Of a stretch of 25,740 nucleotides of DNA, positions 3,572 to 16,161 are shown in pieces. This stretch comes from a virus. How positions within the stretch are numbered: position 1 is the first letter of the stretch; every line of letters starts with the position of its first letter. The stretch is taken from positions 1-25,740 of the IMG/VR virus record IMGVR_UViG_3300009091_000055; one strand, written 5' to 3'. Under the pieces are notes generated by a model that searched no databases, was not told the origin of the DNA, and worked only from the letters and a program-made list of their open reading frames with translations. The position numbers were made by a program, and so were the translations under genes.

Positions 3572-4486
3572 TTAAACTCCTGGTGTGCCGTACATCGCTC
3601 TCCAGTCTGTCCAACCCACATCGTATCTTTCAGTTGCTTTGTACTTCATTGAATCTGTTTCAAAATCCCCTTCCATCGTTTTCTCCAGCTTACGCCTCAT
3701 CATCAGCTTCATACCTTGAGGTGCGTCAGTCTGGATGAACCATGCTGTTGCAGAGGTAAGCCGTGACAGCACGACTGCACCTTCTGCCAGCGCCCCGGTA
3801 GACTTGATTGGGTTCAAGTCATTGTTTGCGGCCCCAGTTCTCAACACGCTCTTGAGGATTACTTCAGCTTGGAACATATTGCCCGGCGCACAAACGATCT
3901 GCTTGGAGTTCAAGATGATCTTCTTGTTTGTGTTGTCTTCTGCCTGACGAATCTGGATAAGCATTTGCTCAACAGAAGTTTGCGACATGACAGCAGCGGT
4001 TGCCAGTTGATTGCTCAATGTGCCTTGCGCCACAGGATGCGCCGTACTGATTAAGCTTACGCCGTCACCGCCAATATAATTAGCGTTGAATGCGCGGTTG
4101 ATGACGTTTGCTGACAATGTTTCCTTGGTGTCGATCAATGACTGTGCCAAGTGCTTCGAGAAGGTCTGACCGATACGGATATGGTCACCATCTTCCACAA
4201 GCACCTTAGTCAATGCGAACGCCATGCCATATGGACGGTACACGTACCGCTTCATAAACAGCACGCCACCTTGATGGTAGGTCACTGGCATACCGTCAGG
4301 CAGCTCAGGGGCGGATGGGAAGCCATACAGCACTGGCTCTTCGTGATACGCCCTTGGAATACCGTTTTCTTCGCGGAAGACTTTAGACCACTCGTCTTTC
4401 CGTAACTCATAGACTCCATCGAAGCATTCATTGAGGATTGGCTCAACTATGCTTCTAAAGTCCGTCGAACGCATGGGTGCACTCAT
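3572..4486 (-). CDS. Major capsid protein
   Basis: 304 residues, with no cleavage or maturation protease visible nearby. ATG at 4486 follows AAGGAG with nine bases of spacing. The sequence resembles phage major head subunits of the Mu gpT-like branch of the HK97 fold. It has an N-terminal arm (DFRSIVEPILNECFDGVYEL), a central GMAFALTKVLVEDGDH segment, STAHPVAQG and a long helix with SVEQMLIQIRQAEDNTNKK. It ends in a P-domain-like stretch with FIQTDAPQGMKLMMRRK and a C-terminal GWTDWRAMYGT. The context (scaffold, co-chaperonin and decoration-like gene upstream, terminator downstream) fits. A homing endonuclease separates it from the decoration-like gene. Confidence 0.88.
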   Translation of the reverse strand: MSAPMRSTDFRSIVEPILNECFDGVYELRKDEWSKVFREENGIPRAYHEEPVLYGFPSAPELPDGMPVTYHQGGVLFMKRYVYRPYGMAFALTKVLVEDGDHIRIGQTFSKHLAQSLIDTKETLSANVINRAFNANYIGGDGVSLISTAHPVAQGTLSNQLATAAVMSQTSVEQMLIQIRQAEDNTNKKIILNSKQIVCAPGNMFQAEVILKSVLRTGAANNDLNPIKSTGALAEGAVVLSRLTSATAWFIQTDAPQGMKLMMRRKLEKTMEGDFETDSMKYKATERYDVGWTDWRAMYGTPGV

Positions 4487-4526
4487 ATTAACTAACTCCT
4501 TTTAATTTATATACTTGTATTCAAAA

Positions 4527-5195
4527 TTACGACTTTTTATTTGGTCTATTAGCCAGCATATTTTCCCGTTTTATCGGGTCTTGCCATGAGGCTTTGCGCT
4601 TCTCGCTCATCATCTTTCGAAACTTTGGGTCTGCCCACATTGCCTTAGCTGCATTTGCTTTTTTTGCATTTGCTTCTGGAGTATTAGATTTTCGAGCGTT
4701 CTTCACTCTCGCATCATACCCAGCTTGGGACATTGTTTTCTTCTTGCCTTTCATCGCCTCGCATACACGTTTCCTGTATCCTTCGCTTGCCCAACGCTCT
4801 GTACTTGTACGTCTAGTTTCTTCGCGTTTAGCTGCCTTATATTCAGGTCGTTTATGCACTTCTTTTATGGCAATAGACATCTTATCTCTACTCTCTTGCG
4901 GCATGACATAGCCTGAGCTTCCATCACCACCATCGGTCATATTGGTAAGATTAACCCCAGCACGGCGTAAGCATTTAATCAGCCCTTTCTCAAGCTCAAA
5001 CGCGATTTCTTCGCTTGAGCAATCAATCTTGCCAACCAATATGCTCTCTTTGCCGTGCTTTTTCGTAATAAATCCATGAAAGCGATTACGTTCAGTTAAG
5101 TCCAAATATCTTTTGCCTCTGCCCTTACCAACATAGAAAATATCGCTGCTATTAACAGCTTTTGGCTTGGCATGGACATAAGCAAAATAAGTCAT
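4527..5195 (-). mobile_element. Free-standing GIY-YIG homing endonuclease gene
   Basis: 222 residues. The N-terminal GIY-YIG nuclease core has YFAYVH (first strand, GIY replaced), FYVGKGRGKR (YIG strand as YVG), RNRFH, a glutamate-bearing helix in FELEKGLI, and the hallmark NMTDGGDGSSGY. It is followed by DNA-binding NUMOD3-like repeats: a SRDKMSIAIKE segment, then repeated basic helices ending with MWADPKFRKMMSEKRKASWQDP. This is the layout of free-standing phage Seg-type enzymes. The gene is inserted neatly between the decoration-like gene and the capsid gene, and both neighbours are intact. It has no good SD (GCGAAAACATA precedes the ATG), unlike nearly every neighbour, as expected for a selfish insertion. 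It mobilises itself by cutting uninserted relatives. Confidence 0.88.
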
Positions 5196-5206
5196 TATGT
5201 TTTCGC

Positions 5207-5779
5207 TTAAACAGCAACAACAGTAGCTTGGTGTTGAGACTCATTGATCATGGCGTGGACAACTGTATAAGCATCCCCCCAGTCATTAGCAATGCTCGGA
5301 GCCAAGCCAATTATTCTCATCTGCTTGACATTCCCAGCGGCAGCTAAAGTAGTACTGAGTGTTGCCTGAGACAATCCTGTTACAGACGATCCGTCAGTTA
5401 CATTCGAAAGATCGGCCTGATCATCAATACTGGTCTGAGCCAAGCTGCCGTCCGCCTGAATCTCGTACACAATAAGCGGATCGTCGTAGTAAGACACTCG
5501 GCAACTACCAGCAAGATAAGTTGTATTTGCAGGCCAGTAATTAGATACACGCATACGGCCAGTTGAATCAACCCACTCGACACCATGAAAGAACCCTAAA
5601 AACGGGTCTCCAGCAGCAGCAACAACTATCTGCCCGGATGTATCCATCTTTACTGACTGGCCTTTTTTAATATCGCTTGTGTATCCAGAAAGGATACCGT
5701 CCTTTACCACTCGCGGCCTGATAATGCCGCTTGGATGATAAACTGGGCGCGCACCAAAAGGTTTATTGGTTGAAGACAT
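5207..5779 (-). CDS. Capsid decoration-like / head protein
   Basis: 190 residues. The N-terminus reads FGARPVYHPSG. A short beta-barrel-like region follows, with KKGQSVKMDTSGQIVVAAAGD, LGFFHGVEWVD and VSNYWPANTTYLAG. This pattern recurs in a conserved phage protein encoded directly before the major capsid gene in podovirus-like genomes and probably coats or stabilises the capsid. The C-terminal half has predicted beta strands ending in HAMINESQHQATVVAV. Originally it must have been adjacent to the capsid gene; the GIY-YIG gene now separates them. Identification rests on sequence pattern and context. Confidence 0.72.
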   Translation of the reverse strand: MSSTNKPFGARPVYHPSGIIRPRVVKDGILSGYTSDIKKGQSVKMDTSGQIVVAAAGDPFLGFFHGVEWVDSTGRMRVSNYWPANTTYLAGSCRVSYYDDPLIVYEIQADGSLAQTSIDDQADLSNVTDGSSVTGLSQATLSTTLAAAGNVKQMRIIGLAPSIANDWGDAYTVVHAMINESQHQATVVAV

Positions 5780-7987: not shown

Positions 7988-8176
7988 TTAGTCTTCTTTA
8001 TTTGTCTCGGCTTCAAGTAATTCCTTAAGAATTTCTTTTGCCTTCTCCAGCCCACTACCATACCCAACTTTTTTCTTATATTCAGAATAGTCGCTAGGCA
8101 CGCCAGATATAATGCAGGAGGTATTGTCCTTAACCTCCGCATTTATCCGGTCAATGAACTTGTTTATGTCGATCAT
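7988..8176 (-). CDS. Small conserved phage protein, unknown function
   Basis: 62 residues. Its ATG at 8176 overlaps the stop of the preceding gene (ATGA), so it is probably translationally coupled; no own SD is evident. It is composed of two helices with the sequence IISGVPSDYSEYKKKVGYGSGLEKAKEILKELLEAE. This fits a small family common in podovirus head regions ('DY.eYk..vG...Gl..A..il'). Function unknown, but it is possibly a head-assembly accessory protein. Confidence 0.75.
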   Translation of the reverse strand: MIDINKFIDRINAEVKDNTSCIISGVPSDYSEYKKKVGYGSGLEKAKEILKELLEAETNKED

Positions 8177-8325
8177 TTTGATGTTTTTTTAACATCACCC
8201 TTGGAGGCAGTTCCTGATCCACCTTTTCCGTCCAAAGGTACGCCCATCGCGATCCTCTTGTGCTGCGGCACTAATTCGCTTTTTTGTGCTGCATCACTAT
8301 TTTGTTTAGCGTTTTCTTTCATCAT
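8173..8325 (-). CDS. Small hypothetical phage protein
   Basis: 50 residues, beginning with two adjacent ATGs (8325 and 8322) after GGGGGA. The end overlaps the next gene as ATGA. Sequence: helical, polar N-terminus (KENAKQNSDAAQKSELV), then RIAMGVPLDGKGGSGTASKG and a lysine tail. Clean SD, overlap with its neighbour and operon position support a real gene. Function unknown. Confidence 0.72.
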   Translation of the reverse strand: MMKENAKQNSDAAQKSELVPQHKRIAMGVPLDGKGGSGTASKGDVKKTSK

Positions 8326-8345
8326 TCCCCCAATGGCTAGTTAAT

Positions 8346-8367
8346 AATTATTTGCTAGTATAGAATT
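8346..8367. repeat. Dispersed 22-bp CTAG-centred repeat, copy 2
   Basis: Same element as at 3486, two differences from the consensus (core TATTTGCTAGTATAGA). It overlaps the stop codon of the exported-protein gene by two bases and sits in the gap before the next start. Confidence 0.8.
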
Positions 8368-8683
8368 ATTTATTGCACGTGCAAGTAGGTGGCGCTGGTA
8401 TGGTTGGGGTCACAGATGGAACCTGCGGAGCCGTCACCTCACCCGGCAACTTAAAGTATGAACCTCCAGAATTAATATTGTTTTGGCGTATTTTCAAGTA
8501 ATAACTCTTCAAGTGAACCTGAGTCTGCTTTGCATCGAAGGCAAGATGATTAATGCGCGCAAATTCTTTATTCCAAGCCCTAGCTTCAATTTCTTCAGAA
8601 GTTGGGTCTGCGTATGCTGTAACAATACTACACGCCAACAGTGCCGCCGCAATGAACATTCCAATTCTTTTAAATTTCTGCAT
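8366..8683 (-). CDS. Small exported protein (signal peptide), unknown function
   Basis: 105 residues from ATG at 8683 (GGAG six bases upstream). An in-frame ATG at 8695 overlaps that SD and is less likely. The N-terminus FKRIGMFIAAALLACSIVTAYADP is a good signal peptide. Cleavage after AYA is plausible; LLAC is a weak lipobox alternative. The mature part is helical (SEEIEARAWNKEFARINHLAF), then Pro/Thr-rich, ending PPTCTCNK. Size, export and the Pro-rich tail recall outer spanin-type proteins, but no partner or endolysin is seen nearby, so I do not assign lysis. Its first 14 bases overlap the end of the HNH gene. Confidence 0.75.
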   Translation of the reverse strand: MQKFKRIGMFIAAALLACSIVTAYADPTSEEIEARAWNKEFARINHLAFDAKQTQVHLKSYYLKIRQNNINSGGSYFKLPGEVTAPQVPSVTPTIPAPPTCTCNK

Positions 8684-9419
8684 TTGATTCTCCATTTAAG
8701 TTAGTTTGTAAATTATTTTGTAAATCAACTACCGTTTGCTCTTGCTCACCCTTCAGCTTTCTTTTTTCTTGCAACGCCCTCTTGATAGCAACTCCTCTTT
8801 TTAACAAAAAATCCTTATCTAGATTAAATAGCTTTCTTGATTCTAACACCTTATTCCTATACTCCGCATCCTGCCACCTTAACTTCATTGACTGAGATAA
8901 CTTATCTTTTGCGCCGGGCTTATTTATAGAAATAATTCTTGCTTCACTTCTCCGTTTTTTGCTTTCTGGTCTTGCGCAACTCTCTCTTAACGCAATTTTA
9001 TTTCTATCCGTTAATGGAACCCCCTTTTTAGATAAACTCATTTTATCCTTGGTTGATTGCGGCGTTACATATCCAATTCTTGCAATACCCATTGCTTTCC
9101 TTGTGTCTTTAGATACAAATTTACCAATTTGATGCAATGAAGATTCTTTGCGCGCTACATCATATAGCTTGCTATTAATATACCTGTTCTTTTTTCCTTT
9201 CATCATTATTACCGCATACCACATACTACCGCCGTGTATTTTTGCTAATAGCATGTGCGCTATAAAATGCTCTCTAGCAGTTAATACAGCTATATTTTCT
9301 TCGCCATCTAATCCTCCAAGAGCAACTGGGATAATGTGATGCCTCTCGCTATATCCATCAAGCAGCATTCTTTCTTTCGATTTATTGATTAGCGCTTGAT
9401 ATACGCTTGCATAATTCAT
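8670..9419 (-). mobile_element. Free-standing HNH homing endonuclease with a portal-derived C-terminus
   Basis: 249 residues. The HNH core lies near the N-terminus: ERHHIIPVALGGLDG, then EENIAVLTAREHFIAHMLL (His27/His28, Asn42, His51 as the expected catalytic/metal residues). NUMOD3-like DNA-binding repeats follow (STKDKMSLSKKG, then MKLRWQDAEYRNKV). The start codon overlaps the portal stop (ATGA). The last ~25 residues, with GEQEQTVVDLQNNLQ, closely match the portal's own C-terminus (AEQEKTVVDMQNKVQ), and the DNA aligns over 48 bases at 35 matches. The gene thus appears to have entered the 3' end of an ancestral portal gene and now reads through the displaced portal end. It spreads by cutting uninserted alleles. 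Confidence 0.87.
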
Positions 9420-11932
9420 TGCGCTGCATCACCCATGCCTTCTTGCACTTTGTTTTGCATGTCTACTACGGTTTTTTCTTGTTCAGCCTTTACTTTAGCC
9501 GCTTCAACACTTAGCTCGATTGTTCGTACACGCTCCTCTGTCAAGTTTTCTTCTGTAGCCATCGCTGCATCAAGCTGATTCTTCTCTTCTGCCTGCTGTA
9601 CCGACACCTCCAATTTCTTCATATCCAACACCGTATCTGCCTTATCCTTCTCTGCCTTACGCTGAGTCTCTGCCATCCCGGTCTGAAGGAATGCGTCAGC
9701 CTGCGGGTCAGTTGGCGGCTTGGGAGCATATTGTTGCGCTACCTGCATCAACTGCTGAAGCACAGGCAAGAACTTCTGGAACCCTGCTTGCGTATCATTG
9801 GTGACGTTATGCGAGGCCCCGGCAACGGCATGGTCAATCTCTGCCATATTGCCCTTCTTATTGTACTTAGGTTTAAGCTCCCCAAGCTCATCCTGCGCAT
9901 ACACTTCAACCCTTTGTGTGTACCATAACAGCATGTGCTGCTTGATATGATCCAAAACGGCTGGAACGAACGCTGGAGCGATTATTGGGTTCATCCCTAG
10001 CACAGGGTTCAACGCAAAGGCGAAATGCGCCTCTAGGTGTGCTATGTGGTCTTGGCTTGGATATACAGCAACAGCTCTTGACATGGACATAGCGGCATTC
10101 TCATCGGCGGCGTGCATTTCCACATGCTTGTTGTACTGAGGCATGATCTCCGATATGTTCGGTATCTTCATTTGCTTCAGCACGCGACTATGCACAGCTC
10201 TTGCGTCATACAGCTCTGGCTGCTTCTCCATCATCTGCAACACAACTTGGTTCTGAGCTACGCGCTGCCCTTCAGAGAATATGTGCGGGTCACTGACTGG
10301 TATTATGTCCGTGGTTCTTTCGAAGTCACCCGGGATTACGTTCAACTCCTCAGCCATGCCAAACTTCTTCTGGTCATCAAGATAGTAACGGTTTATCCGC
10401 TGCAATATCTTCATCACCATGCGTTGCGAGTTGTGCAGTTTCGAATGGATCGAAGAGAACACAACTGAGCCTTGCTCAATCAATGCCTGAGTAGTTCCGA
10501 CCGGAGCGTTTGTTGTTACGTCAGCGATCTTCTCTTCTGCTGTTGTAACAACACCCTTGGCGGCATCAGTAAGCCATCCAAGCAGCTGGAACAATACTGG
10601 CGAAGGAGGATTGAATGGCATCGGCATTGCAATCTTGCGAATATCGTCAACACCTGCAACGCTTTCGATCTCTGTAATCTGCGTTATTTGCACGCTCTTT
10701 GATTGTCCTGATACCTTGGCCCCTTTGAGCTTGAGCATAGATGCGGCGTTATTAATATGAGCACTATCCATGAGTGCGCGAAGAGCACCTGTAGCAGAAG
10801 CCGCAAGACCACCGATAAGTTGAGGGAATCCAATAGCGTAAGCACCGCGCCAAGATATAAACTTAAACTCAACCATCCAATCCAGCTTTTCCATCGCCTC
10901 ATCGCCATCTTCCCAATTCCTGTATAGGCCAACAACGGCATAATCTTGATCGTCTATCATCAAGATATATGGGGCTGATTTACCTTTGGATATTTCATCG
11001 TCTTCTAATTCGAGGTTGCAGCTTATGTGGAATACTCGACGAATTCCATCTTCGTCATTCATTGAATATTCTTTTCCTTCGATCTTCCTGTTTGCTGATT
11101 CTGATAATGTGGCATCAGGCTCCATCGAAGCCATAGTGTGACGCGTGTCGCGATAGATTCCACCATCTACGCGCATAATATATTCTTCTTCTGTTATATC
11201 CTGAATCTCAGTAACTCGTGGAGATACATAGAAGCTTGACGCGGAGAATGGCAGCAGAATGCGGTCGATAGGCACGAACGCTGCTCTCGGCCTACGCTTG
11301 CGCGAATCCCACCATATCTTCAGAAACTGGCTACCACCAAGCGGCAATTGCGTCAGAAGCTGCTCAAGCTCATCACGGAACTCGACTATCTGTTCCGTTA
11401 ACTGCCAGTTCATGTAGTCTCGCTTGCGCTCCGCAACATCAGTCTTTTCTTCAGTTATTTCACCAATGATATCCGTCTTGACTGGGCCTCCTGCCGGGAA
11501 CAACTCCTTCATGGCTCTGGCAGCGAAGTCTACGCACGCCTCAGCCATTACTGGATGACATACTCTCGCCGCCCCATCGAACTCAGCTCCGCCGGGCGCA
11601 TCATCACCCATGCCTGTGCGCCTCAATCCCTCTTCGTATTGCTCATCACGAAGCTTGCGCGCCTCCCTGTCTGCGTCGATGTTATAGATGTACTTTATGG
11701 CAAGATCATTTAGTTCCAGTTCGCTTATCACCTCAGCGAGGTTGTCGTAGAACTTGCCCCCTGTTGGCCGCTCCTCCTCACCCATGCTGACTATGGCTGA
11801 ACCATCAGGCATTTCGATAACGTCAGGTTCTGCCTCTTCCCCAAGAATCTCATCAAGATTAAATTCTACTGGCTGCTCTTCTTCGTCACCAAGCCCGGGC
11901 ATGTATCCTTGTTCAAGCGGTAAAGTTTCCAT
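9416..11932 (-). CDS. Portal protein
   Basis: 838 residues, large for a portal but within the range of podovirus portals. The acidic N-terminal leader is followed by DGAARVCHPVMAEACVDFAARAMKELF (early clip/stem segment) and GGSQFLKIWWDSRKRRPRAAFVPIDRILLP. Around the middle is the portal wing with VVGLYRNWEDGD and a helix-rich TGALRALMDSAHINNAASML. The C-terminal third is long coiled coil ending AEQEKTVVDMQNKVQEGMGDAAQ. The portal forms the dodecameric DNA gateway of the head and docks the terminase. The ATG follows the upstream stop by six bases with only a weak distant SD (AAGGCGAG), so it probably relies on coupling. The 3' end is the target site of the HNH homing gene. Confidence 0.85.
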   Translation of the reverse strand: METLPLEQGYMPGLGDEEEQPVEFNLDEILGEEAEPDVIEMPDGSAIVSMGEEERPTGGKFYDNLAEVISELELNDLAIKYIYNIDADREARKLRDEQYEEGLRRTGMGDDAPGGAEFDGAARVCHPVMAEACVDFAARAMKELFPAGGPVKTDIIGEITEEKTDVAERKRDYMNWQLTEQIVEFRDELEQLLTQLPLGGSQFLKIWWDSRKRRPRAAFVPIDRILLPFSASSFYVSPRVTEIQDITEEEYIMRVDGGIYRDTRHTMASMEPDATLSESANRKIEGKEYSMNDEDGIRRVFHISCNLELEDDEISKGKSAPYILMIDDQDYAVVGLYRNWEDGDEAMEKLDWMVEFKFISWRGAYAIGFPQLIGGLAASATGALRALMDSAHINNAASMLKLKGAKVSGQSKSVQITQITEIESVAGVDDIRKIAMPMPFNPPSPVLFQLLGWLTDAAKGVVTTAEEKIADVTTNAPVGTTQALIEQGSVVFSSIHSKLHNSQRMVMKILQRINRYYLDDQKKFGMAEELNVIPGDFERTTDIIPVSDPHIFSEGQRVAQNQVVLQMMEKQPELYDARAVHSRVLKQMKIPNISEIMPQYNKHVEMHAADENAAMSMSRAVAVYPSQDHIAHLEAHFAFALNPVLGMNPIIAPAFVPAVLDHIKQHMLLWYTQRVEVYAQDELGELKPKYNKKGNMAEIDHAVAGASHNVTNDTQAGFQKFLPVLQQLMQVAQQYAPKPPTDPQADAFLQTGMAETQRKAEKDKADTVLDMKKLEVSVQQAEEKNQLDAAMATEENLTEERVRTIELSVEAAKVKAEQEKTVVDMQNKVQEGMGDAAQ

Positions 11933-11938
11933 TCTGAA

Positions 11939-14900
11939 TTATCTCGCCTTAGTTAATTTATTACGCATTGTAGCCAATTTCATCGTGTCTTTGCTTGGGT
12001 TTAATTCTTTGCTAGTAGAGAATTTAATTCTTCCGCCCTTGGCTTTGCCATGTATTCTGCTAGGCCCGTTGTAATCACCAGTGGATCGACTTGCTCGGTC
12101 TTTGAGTATGGCTTCATCCATTGCCTTTTTGTATGCCCCACGCTTTGCGGCCTCTTCAAGTTCCTGCCTTCTCTTAATTGCCTCATAGACTTCGCTCCCT
12201 GCCATCTCTGATTGTGGCGCTTGTTGATTGCGCGTATTGAAGTCTGGATCATCCTTGTATTTATTGACTGGCGAATAAGCTGTTCCAGCTGGATTTTGCA
12301 CGCTATCCAAAGTCTTCCACTGAACTTTATTCTTTTCAGCGTCCTTTGCTGCCATCTTTGCCAGCGCACGCACTATACCACCACCAGCCTTGTTGCCTAC
12401 TATACCGCCATCCTTATACCCTTGGCTCTGCAACCCAAGATGGCCTCCGCCGACTTTCGTGCGGTCTGCCTGCGTTACCATTAACGTCTTGCCTTCATGC
12501 TGTCCTAGAGCCTCTGAAGCCTTCATCATGGTCTTGAAGCCTTTGACTATGCCACCGACCGCCATGCCTTGCGGAGGCACGACATCATCAAGGAACGACA
12601 TGTCGACATCAGGAGCTACATATTGCGGCTTGTCTAAGCTTCTGCGCGCTTCGTTTACTTGCTGCATCGTCATGTACCTAGGAAGGTCAGGATTTTCACC
12701 TTGCAATAGTGCGTGTTCTGATTCTTTAAAAACGCTCTTTGGATTATATAAATCAGCATGATGCAGGTCGTCAACCTCAGCGAAATTGCCCGATCTTATG
12801 AAGTCCTGCATCATTGGTATTAGCTCACGCTTGTATGCTGGATTCTTCTCCACCCAGTCTTGCACCCTCTGGCTTTCCCAGCTGTTACCGAATGGGCGCA
12901 TCTGGTTTAGTCTCGTACCACCAAGGTCTTTTTCCCCTTGCCACATTTCCTGTGTATGGGCCTTGATGTGCGGCCTTCCTTCTTTGTCTATCAGCACATG
13001 CAACCTATTCCCAGCCGCCTGATCACCGAAGCTAAGAGCGTTGTCCAATTCGTTAGTACACCATCCGCCTTGGCATCCAATCTCCTGCACTTTAGCAATA
13101 CCTTCAGGCGTCTTAACGTCGGGCAGTTCAACCCATCTGTGCCCACTCGGATAGACCTTGCTTGTTTTATACCCAAGGTTCTCAGCCATTCGCTCGGCTG
13201 GCGTCTTCTCGTGCTGCCTACCTAAGAACTGGTCGCGCTCGTACACACGCTTAACAGCGTCCTCCATCCTTATTGCATTCAGGTTTTCAGGGCGCAACCT
13301 GCCCTCTTCCATTTCGGTTCTAAGCATGTCCTTTATGCGGTACATGCCAAGCTTGCCCATAGCGTTTGGATCACCCATAACAGAGTTTATGTCGTACACC
13401 CGACTTTCAGGATGGAGTCCCTTAATCCAAGGATTCTTTTCTACCAAATCAGGCACGTTCTTTATCAGGTCATCTACCTTTGATCCGGTTATTATGCTAT
13501 CAGCCACGTCTTCCCATGCCTTAGCTTGCTCTGAAACGCCCATAGGCTCCGGGTATCCGCCAGCTTCTCGATTCATTTTGAGCATGAATTGATTGCGTGT
13601 TTGGCCGGGCCACGGCGTAGTATGCACAATACCTTGTTCCGCAAGCTTCCTGATAGGGTCTTCAGGCGTCCCTATTTCCTGCTTGATGTACTTGGTCATA
13701 GGCCCCTTGATCCACTTGGCAAGCGCCTGCTCACGTGGATGCACTGCATTCTCACTCGATCCTACAATGTTGCGTATGTGCTCCGGTAGGTTATCAGGAA
13801 CCCAATTGCCACCCTTGCCCTTGACCACACCAGCCAATCCCGATCCACCAAATTGACCAAGCATCTCTTCTGGAGGCATGTCTTTCCACCTGCGCGCCTC
13901 AGACGCAAAAGCCTCTACCGGGTGCGCAGTTCTGTGCTTCACGCCTTGCGCCCATTCTGACATGCCTTGCCCTATTGACTTCCGCGCCCTCTCCAACATG
14001 CTTGGGGTTGCTTGCGCATTGCCTGACCTGTTGGCATTCATCAAGGCCGCTTCAAGCAAGGACATCTTCTGCGTGTCGAGTGTAGGCTCATCATCAACCA
14101 ATCCGCCTTTTGCCATCTTCTGCACTGGCTTCTTGCCGAACATGACGGCCATAGGCTTCGCTGCATTGGGGTTTAGCATTCCCTCGTAACCATACTCTTT
14201 GATTATTCGCTCAAGGTCTGTGCTCGATTGAGGCTGATCCACAAGTCCTGCATTGTACTTTGAGGTATATGGCGTGCGGTTCGCCTCACGTGATAGCAAC
14301 AGCAGCTTTTCAGGGTCGCTCGCAATGTCATACAGCTTTTCGCTTTCCGTGCGGTATGCATGCCTACCAAGGCCGGGTTCAGGCGCTACTTCTCCGGGTT
14401 CACCAGCATAGAAATATGACCTCTCCTTGACTGGGTTCGTGGTTTCGGAAAGCCTGTGCTTTTCACTACCCTTTATTCCGCTCCCAAACCTCGTAGGATC
14501 GGTTTCTTTAAGGTCTGGTACGTTACTGTAGTGCGTCAAGGCTGAACGCGATCCTGCACGTGGCTGGATCAATCCCTGCATGTATTCTGGCATCCCTCCG
14601 GTGTAGTTTGCATCAAGCATTTCAGGAGGCAACAGCACGGACTTCTGCGGGGCGAATTGGAATCCTTCGTATAGGGATTTCTTTTCACCTTGCAACCTCT
14701 TCACCTCATCGGCATTGCCTTGGTACTTGGCATTCACTATTTCCCTGTCAAGCTGCGCTATGTTGTGCTTTAGCTCTGCATTGAGGGGCGAGTAGTTGAC
14801 CACACTGTTCTGGCCACGCGTCTCAGCTGCCATTGCAAGCCTTGCCAATGGACTATACATCTGTTGATGGATTATGTATGCGGCCTCCTCACCTTTCGGC

Positions 14901-16117
14901 CCGAACTCATTACCAAGTACCGCATGTCCTAGCAGGTCATGCACCGCCCTGAACTTCTCATTCTCATTCAGGCCAGTCTCCGGGTCTACGTTATGCAGGT
15001 AGTCGTGCTTATCGCCACCTTGGAAAACATACAAGTGCCTATTGCCATGCACGTCAGCTGCCATTTCCTTGGAGCTGGCATAGTTACCTTCACCAGCCTT
15101 ATGGAATGAGAAGTTATAAGGCAGCGCCCTGAACTGCTGATCCGTTTCCACTGCCAGCTGCTTGTAAGCCTTCTCCATCAGGTCATCGTAACTGCGCGCC
15201 CCGGCCTCTTCAATAACCTCTGGCATCTTTTGCAAGTACGCATTGAACACGGTCTGCTTGTAACCGGGCACATCATCTGCACCCAGCATGAACGCCCGGC
15301 CAATGGCTGATTGCTTCGCTAATGAACTTGGAGGATAGTTCCCGACATTGAAATCAACCCCACGCTTTGCCTTGGTATACTCCTGCGCAATCTGCAATGG
15401 TAGGTTCTCCTCTGGCGTAGCGATTATTCGGGCAACTTCCTCGTGCGGGAGAAGTTGCGGAACTCCGTATCCGCTTCGTCCTGTTGCTCCGGTGTCAGCT
15501 CCGGTAGTTCCGTCCCACCCCTCCTGCTCCTTAAGTCCTCTAGAACTGCCTGCGCTCGTGCTATGCGGTCTGACACGGTAGAATGCTCCTTGTTGTTCTG
15601 TTGCATAATTGCTGCTCCTTGGTTGCGCCCGTGTCACAGTGCCGTGGCCTTGGTTGATTGCCTCTCCTGCTGCCTTTGTGCTGCCCTTGATACCCATGCT
15701 CGCTACTGCTTTTCCTGTCTTGCCTACCATCGAAGCAATCGGTTGTGCGAACCCGGCCACCTCAACTATTCTCGGGTCAAACTTCATTGTCTGGAGCGTG
15801 CGCCCTCCTGTTATTGGCGCGGCATTATATGGCTGATCTTCGGTGTACTCACGCGGAGTTCCTGACCAGTCCTGTAGTGCTGATCCAGCTGTCTGGAATG
15901 GGTCGCTAATCACTGCTTGACCAATAGCCGATAGAATCGGGTGCGATTCGCTCTCCAGCTTTCCTTGGAGCTTGTTACCAATACCAACCAACCCTTCGCC
16001 TGCGCTACCAGCAAAACGCTCAAGAGGGGATTGTCGCACTTGACTAATCCCCCCGGTTTCTCCGCTCAACCCGGCCTCTAAGAGGCTCCGCTTGTATTGG
16101 TCAATATCTTCTTGCAT
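11939..16117 (-). CDS. Large modular polyvalent-type phage protein (HDxxGH, ART-like and PcfJ-like segments)
   Basis: 1392 residues from ATG at 16117 (GGGAG five bases upstream; a GTG at 16123 overlaps that SD). Approximate modules: 1-170 Gly/Ala-rich leader; 170-235 low-complexity linker; 240-460 a domain with AVHDLLGHAVLG (His393 and His398 as possible metal ligands) and AAETRGQNSVVNYSP; 528-665 an ADP-ribosyltransferase-like segment with ALTHYSNV, ERSYFYAG and EYGYEGM (candidate His-Tyr-Glu residues); 770-1130 a PcfJ-like segment with HRWVELPD, CQGGWC and LHVLIDKEGRPH; 1185-1370 repeated GG-[IL]-V motifs. Such multidomain proteins of phages and conjugative elements are thought to enter the host with DNA and act on host targets. 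The place between small terminase and portal suggests packaging in the virion. Domain calls are by pattern. One 22-bp repeat lies inside the 3' end (IKFSTSKEL). Confidence 0.75.
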   Translation of the reverse strand: MQEDIDQYKRSLLEAGLSGETGGISQVRQSPLERFAGSAGEGLVGIGNKLQGKLESESHPILSAIGQAVISDPFQTAGSALQDWSGTPREYTEDQPYNAAPITGGRTLQTMKFDPRIVEVAGFAQPIASMVGKTGKAVASMGIKGSTKAAGEAINQGHGTVTRAQPRSSNYATEQQGAFYRVRPHSTSAGSSRGLKEQEGWDGTTGADTGATGRSGYGVPQLLPHEEVARIIATPEENLPLQIAQEYTKAKRGVDFNVGNYPPSSLAKQSAIGRAFMLGADDVPGYKQTVFNAYLQKMPEVIEEAGARSYDDLMEKAYKQLAVETDQQFRALPYNFSFHKAGEGNYASSKEMAADVHGNRHLYVFQGGDKHDYLHNVDPETGLNENEKFRAVHDLLGHAVLGNEFGPKGEEAAYIIHQQMYSPLARLAMAAETRGQNSVVNYSPLNAELKHNIAQLDREIVNAKYQGNADEVKRLQGEKKSLYEGFQFAPQKSVLLPPEMLDANYTGGMPEYMQGLIQPRAGSRSALTHYSNVPDLKETDPTRFGSGIKGSEKHRLSETTNPVKERSYFYAGEPGEVAPEPGLGRHAYRTESEKLYDIASDPEKLLLLSREANRTPYTSKYNAGLVDQPQSSTDLERIIKEYGYEGMLNPNAAKPMAVMFGKKPVQKMAKGGLVDDEPTLDTQKMSLLEAALMNANRSGNAQATPSMLERARKSIGQGMSEWAQGVKHRTAHPVEAFASEARRWKDMPPEEMLGQFGGSGLAGVVKGKGGNWVPDNLPEHIRNIVGSSENAVHPREQALAKWIKGPMTKYIKQEIGTPEDPIRKLAEQGIVHTTPWPGQTRNQFMLKMNREAGGYPEPMGVSEQAKAWEDVADSIITGSKVDDLIKNVPDLVEKNPWIKGLHPESRVYDINSVMGDPNAMGKLGMYRIKDMLRTEMEEGRLRPENLNAIRMEDAVKRVYERDQFLGRQHEKTPAERMAENLGYKTSKVYPSGHRWVELPDVKTPEGIAKVQEIGCQGGWCTNELDNALSFGDQAAGNRLHVLIDKEGRPHIKAHTQEMWQGEKDLGGTRLNQMRPFGNSWESQRVQDWVEKNPAYKRELIPMMQDFIRSGNFAEVDDLHHADLYNPKSVFKESEHALLQGENPDLPRYMTMQQVNEARRSLDKPQYVAPDVDMSFLDDVVPPQGMAVGGIVKGFKTMMKASEALGQHEGKTLMVTQADRTKVGGGHLGLQSQGYKDGGIVGNKAGGGIVRALAKMAAKDAEKNKVQWKTLDSVQNPAGTAYSPVNKYKDDPDFNTRNQQAPQSEMAGSEVYEAIKRRQELEEAAKRGAYKKAMDEAILKDRASRSTGDYNGPSRIHGKAKGGRIKFSTSKELNPSKDTMKLATMRNKLTKAR
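12003..12024. repeat. Dispersed 22-bp CTAG-centred repeat, copy 3 (inside coding sequence)
   Basis: Core TCTTTGCTAGTAGAGA, taken as the consensus. It lies within the last 30 codons of the polyvalent-type gene, where it is translated as part of IKFSTSKEL, so it has been tolerated in coding sequence. Confidence 0.85.
15424..15606 (-). CDS. Nested small gene candidate inside the polyvalent gene
   Basis: 60-codon frame on the same strand as the large gene, in a different phase. ATG at 15606 has AAGGAG exactly eight bases upstream. The product looks like a normal soluble helical protein (SDRIARAQAVLEDLRSRRGG, then LPELTPEQQDEADTEF), whereas the large protein in this stretch (about residues 171-231) is Gly/Ser/Thr-rich linker with no regular pattern. 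Either an overprinted gene with its own start, or a relic of an ancestral frame restored by two compensating indels. No homologue is recognised. Confidence 0.45.
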   Translation of the reverse strand: MQQNNKEHSTVSDRIARAQAVLEDLRSRRGGTELPELTPEQQDEADTEFRNFSRTRKLPE

Positions 16118-16161
16118 AGCCACTCCCGTTGATTGTTAGTCCGTGGTGTTATTGTACTTCT

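Follow-up and report, generated by a model that had tools for sequence, protein, structure and literature searches.

The HNH homing endonuclease gene located directly downstream of the portal gene in the analysed DNA ends in a second, diverged copy of the portal 3′ end: the last 21 or more portal codons recur as the C-terminus of the endonuclease. The analysed DNA, referred to here as the window, is a virus fragment of 25,740 bases from IMG/VR. It is highly probable that a free-standing HNH gene invaded the portal 3′ end as a unit together with a diverged, functional version of this end, and that the enzyme's tail was formed from the resident end. The order of genes on the minus strand is similar to that of MW202545 and of the Caulobacter phage RW. 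All three contain a large ORF, the portal gene, small genes, a GroES-like gene, more genes and the capsid gene. The MW202545 counterpart of the window portal is annotated as a head-to-tail connecting protein. The features of the region are listed in Table 1.

Table 1. Features around the portal 3′ end in the window
Feature	Position	Strand	Basis or remark
50-aa gene, directly 3′ of the portal in empty relatives	8173..8325	-	70% over 47 aa to L004, L008-L012
109-aa ORF, signal-peptide/lipobox-like start (..AAALLAC..)	8366..8695	-	begins inside the putative displaced portal end
Putative displaced portal 3′ end, forming the HNH C-terminus and stop codon	8670..8759 (homologous core 8697-8759)	-	profile, tblastn, DNA match
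HNH homing endonuclease gene, 249 aa	8670..9419	-	phrog_655 match, conserved HNH residues, GC 36%
Present portal 3′ end, probably the incoming diverged end	9416..9496	-	tails of relatives, L171/L172 analogy
Portal protein gene, 838 aa, putatively the invaded gene	9416..11932	-	47-55% to RW and MW202545 portal-position proteins

The portal protein terminates in KVKAEQEKTVVDMQNKVQEGMGDAAQ and the HNH protein in KLKGEQEQTVVDLQNNLQTNLNGESNAEI, each followed by the stop codon. In the best 48-base stretch (9443-9490 versus 8706-8753), 35 bases are identical, and the 13 mismatches fall on the first, second and third codon positions 3, 1 and 9 times, respectively. Across the 63-base core (9434-9496 versus 8697-8759), 40 bases are identical and the 23 mismatches are distributed as 7, 3 and 13. 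This agrees with the preliminary description of the sequence, which had placed a diverged portal 3′ end at the end of the HNH gene with differences mainly in third positions. Among the 51,384 48-mers from both strands of the window, a match of 35/48 is reached only by the two copies themselves. The end-anchored similarity of the portal and HNH C-termini has a score of 65, and the maximum was 33 both in 6,320 and in 9,312 mismatched gene/HNH pairs. Both C-termini are helical with a high content of E, Q and K, as would be expected if two coiled-coil-like ends resembled each other by chance or convergence. Given the null scores, on which this reading was rejected as a leading one, the unique DNA match and the 17 bases identical with a related portal (see below), such a coincidence is hardly credible.

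The origin of the HNH tail was assessed with 80 portal relatives from IMG/VR, which are 57-70% identical to the window portal. A profile was built from 68 distinct portal C-termini, derived from these 80 relatives without the HNH gene and from two further relatives. When compared with all frames of the window, it gave a meaningful E-value only for the portal (7.6e-35) and for the HNH tail (1.7e-4), and the tail is matched end to end (profile positions 83-108 of 109). None of the approximately 80 IMG/VR relatives carries an HNH gene downstream of the portal. A search of GTDB genome contigs gave only four relatives of the portal (56-62%). The L004 group has the 50-aa gene directly 3′ of the portal, without the HNH gene. 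The preliminary description had derived the copy at 8698-8760 from a portal gene, and uninserted relatives do match it: the empty portals of L004 and L008-L012 end in KLKGEQEKTVVGLQDRIQQSMNGEA and show 61% over 28 aa to the HNH tail in tblastn. At the start of the match, a run of 17 bases, AAGCTGAAGGGTGAGCA, is exactly shared by the L004 portal end and the HNH tail. As that description had also implied, the KLKGEQEQTVVD tail is absent from the HNH relatives found elsewhere, in T4-like phages and in other viral contigs; most of the former have a zinc finger at the C-terminus.

The start codon of the HNH gene lies inside the portal stop codon (ATGA, 9416-9419), and the GC content of the gene is 36% versus 49% for the portal gene. 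The HNH protein matches the homing endonucleases of phrog_655 over residues 1-211 (E 3.1e-44) and shows 44% to an RB16 Mob-like enzyme over residues 1-147. The residues H27, H28, N42, H51 and H55 are invariant in two alignments, with 6 and 11 sequences. The Pfam HNH model (PF01844) gives 14.4 bits, which is under the curated cut-off of 21.4; this is a limit of model sensitivity and not a defining biological feature. A sequence search of solved structures with the HNH protein returned nothing significant, and the best Foldseek matches of the HNH model, the HNH domains of I-F_HNH Cascade, were likewise not significant (E ≥ 0.14). A group I intron or an intein carrying the HNH gene was also considered. 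It was rejected, as an Rfam search of 8000-10500 gave no match at E ≤ 1, the portal ORF has its own stop codon and the HNH gene has its own start codon.

Rather than being acquired at this portal, the tail might be a long-standing part of the enzyme, taken up a single time from some other portal gene and brought here with the enzyme. The tail is read in frame, and AlphaFold2 models it within a single long helix at the C-terminus (residues 170-245). The pLDDT of this helix is mostly above 80, but the pTM of the model is 0.42, so that any role of the tail in the enzyme would be tentative. A long-standing tail is nevertheless very unlikely, since the other HNH relatives do not have it, and since the HNH genes at the same position in L098 and L221 carry the end of their own portal lineage.

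A single-sequence query for close relatives of the window HNH protein in viral contigs found none. A search with the HNH alignment identified L098, located on the same contig as L171. On this contig, a portal relative (44%) is followed by an HNH gene at the equivalent position. This portal has near-identical empty relatives, including L172. L171 and L172 do not differ at all in the 1,323 bases upstream of the portal. Within the 2,496 bases of the portal 12 differences are found, nine of which are concentrated in the last 37 bases (hypergeometric 2.6e-15). Eight of the last 12 codons of the L171 portal are changed relative to L172; seven of these changes are synonymous and one replaces I with L. 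In L171, this re-spelled portal end is followed by the HNH gene with an ATGA overlap. The last codons of the HNH gene (ATC AAT CCC AAC CCC TGA) and the sequence beyond them correspond to the portal end and the downstream region of L172, with five differences in 702 bases. A further example at this site, L221, is diverged (HNH 76%). The two inserted portals, L171 and L221, have GLNP, and the readable empty relatives in this set have GINP, as would be expected if the element carried a modified target site. Read from their sequences, L171 and L172 appear to show the proposed mechanism almost directly, in its states before and after insertion, and they are the strongest evidence for it.

Taken alone, the window would also fit a local tandem duplication of the portal 3′ end by slippage or unequal recombination, with later entry of the HNH gene and drift of the copy behind it, as the two copies lie in tandem around the HNH gene and have diverged from each other. 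However, L171 and L172 show the reverse, with the portal's own end changed and the displaced copy unchanged. In the window too, all 51 distinct relatives are closer by identity to the HNH tail than to the present portal end (mean 0.50 versus 0.33). Tandem duplication was rejected as a leading reading on these two grounds and is regarded as improbable. BLOSUM scores favour the HNH tail in 42 of the 51 relatives, with two ties.

The order of events in the window is less direct than in L171. The tails of the 51 relatives are not independent of one another. The nearest empty portals are only about 69-70% identical to the window portal. A sliding comparison aimed at a co-conversion breakpoint in the window portal showed instead that its divergence, higher than that of the relatives, extends through the whole C-terminal region and is not confined to the last codons; its odd tail is for this reason weak evidence of replacement. 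Because of this divergence and the non-independence of the relatives, and since even the closest empty allele shares only about 69% identity, we infer the direction of the exchange and the donor and recipient copies in the window from the comparison of tails and from the analogy with L171/L172: the HNH tail would be the old native portal end and the present portal end the newcomer. The preliminary description had proposed that a donor end restores the portal while the old end becomes the tail of the enzyme. The comparison of L171 and L172 supports this course of events, and in the window the assignment of donor and recipient is the inferred part. The earlier reading is thus correct in outline, and the phenomenon is more general than the window alone could show.

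We propose that the incoming unit consisted of a replacement portal end, the stop codon with the ATGA overlap and the HNH gene, and that it was placed between about portal codon 812 and the portal's own last approximately 29 codons. The incoming end would complete the portal protein. The resident end would be pushed behind the HNH gene, where it would be read in frame as the C-terminus of the enzyme and provide its stop codon. Since it supplies the missing coding end, such a unit can stand where an intron would, without splicing. In homing, the enzyme would cut a portal 3′ end that lacks the element, in a phage infecting the same cell. The unit would then be copied during repair, with the portal body as the left arm and the displaced end and downstream genes as the right arm, and the re-spelled end would protect the genome bearing the element from cutting. 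Cutting, protection by re-spelling and mobility are expected here from the behaviour of free-standing phage endonucleases (PMC2988022).

The replacement of gene ends by homing genes seems to be repeated in other phages, as judged from sequence comparisons of a portal gene, two gp2 genes, a small-terminase-like gene and a 5′ mirror case. A survey covered 97 distinct HNH genes that have another gene no more than 150 bases upstream. Five of them (window, L332, L120, L098 and L221) reach an end-anchored duplication score of at least 25, compared with 0.32 expected; because the window was chosen for this feature, the count without it is 4/96, and L098 and L221 are related to each other. In L332, identical in two contigs, a small-terminase-like gene ends in ..NGEATRVDE and the HNH gene in ..NGTAERVD. 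L120 is the Aeromonas phage phiA8-29, in which the end of gp2 is duplicated at the end of the HNH gene. Its relative TSW001 does not carry the insertion, and the comparison does not settle which end is native. In the Vibrio phage K489, a GIY-YIG gene overlaps the gp2 stop codon and ends in DAWRQLK before its own stop. The empty gp2 of K469 ends in AMAWRLK, and the alignment of K489 and K469 picks up again in the last codons of the GIY-YIG enzyme. A search with this enzyme found no relatives. The matches in L098, L221 and K489 are short, with few residues each; L098 is secured by L172, and the others are less so.

The mirror case is found in L013 at about 3778-4540, from the portal stop to the start of the complete 50-aa gene. 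Here, the 5′ part of the 50-aa gene harbours a GIY-YIG gene. Upstream of it, a truncated ORF that is close to the relatives represents the resident 5′ end; downstream of it, the 50-aa gene is complete and begins with a re-spelled 5′ end. A motif scan of 160 portal loci found three (L013, L171 and L221) with an endonuclease gene near the portal end, and all three have a displaced end. It is conceivable, at somewhat less than an even chance, that phage HNH and GIY-YIG genes commonly move as natural 'home-and-rescue' units, in which the nuclease gene is combined with a re-spelled, cleavage-resistant 3′ (or 5′) end of its essential target gene and the C-terminus of the nuclease is open to any displaced end.

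The closest known systems, and a clear precedent, are the mobile ORFs (mORFs) of fungal mitochondria, which were first described in Allomyces atp6 and extended in Glomus (PMC3630166). The known cases are atp6 of Allomyces macrogynus, atp6, atp9, cox2 and nad3 of Glomus sp., atp9 of Rhizopus oryzae and cox2 of Mortierella verticillata (PMC3630166). In these mORFs, an endonuclease gene has moved into an essential gene near its 3′ end and completes it with a foreign C-terminal end; the native end is found behind the endonuclease and is closer to the relatives than the inserted end is (PMC3630166). The arrangement proposed for the window is of this kind. The greater closeness of the displaced end to uninserted relatives is clear in L171/L172 and less so in the window (51 of 51 relatives by identity, 42 of 51 by BLOSUM). 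However, the mORFs are mitochondrial, encode LAGLIDADG or GIY-YIG enzymes and have longer ends, and their native end is often untranslated (PMC3630166). The elements described here reside in phage genomes and encode HNH (also GIY-YIG) enzymes, and the displaced end is in frame as the C-terminus and stop of the enzyme. The window element thus works like a fungal mORF without being a member of this group, given its phage genome and HNH enzyme.

The mob and seg genes of T4-like phages are likewise free-standing HNH or GIY-YIG genes beside essential genes, and their spread is expected to occur by cutting and co-conversion of the flanks (PMC2988022). The review places them between genes, with their cleavage sites in genes close by, and a text search of it gave no passage on a duplicated or displaced gene end (PMC2988022). 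The engineered home-and-rescue drive HomeR, placed in the 3′ end of Drosophila PolG2, also brings together a nuclease element and a re-coded end that restores this essential gene (PMC7968924). HomeR is synthetic and CRISPR-based (PMC7968924), and the comparison concerns the way of working only, without evolutionary relation. No phage report of displaced gene ends was found in the open literature, which is a weak negative as subscription papers could contain one. As far as checked, gene-end replacement is new for phages and is a variant of a mechanism with fungal mitochondrial precedent.

A replacement end carried by the element explains how an intron-less homing gene could target an essential coding sequence without killing its host. 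Comparison of the displaced and the re-spelled end makes the insertion sites, and perhaps the cleavage sites, readable from sequence. Near-isogenic natural pairs are suited to tests of homing, co-conversion length and self-protection, and the elements offer a natural counterpart to engineered rescue drives. Annotators should be aware that such a nuclease, and also the gene preceding it, may have a swapped segment as its C-terminus.

Some further genes of the window and its relatives deserve mention. The 109-aa ORF behind the HNH gene may be a native downstream neighbour of the portal or a later arrival; searches of Pfam, PHROGs and IMG/VR found no relatives. Immediately 5′ of the portal gene is an ORF of 1394 aa (11939-16123, minus strand) with only a partial match to phrog_3170. 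A second endonuclease-like gene (4527-5195, minus strand) is located between the gene at 5207-5779 and the capsid gene and has NUMOD-like motifs in common with the HNH protein. No displaced end was seen when this second gene was checked for one. L016 contains a partial HNH gene, with 55% over 38 aa to the window HNH protein, at the corresponding junction and not at the portal end. In the Caulobacter phage RW (L085 1759-4561), a gene for a SAM-dependent methyltransferase lies between two CDS annotated as large terminase subunit, which possibly represent an interrupted terminase.
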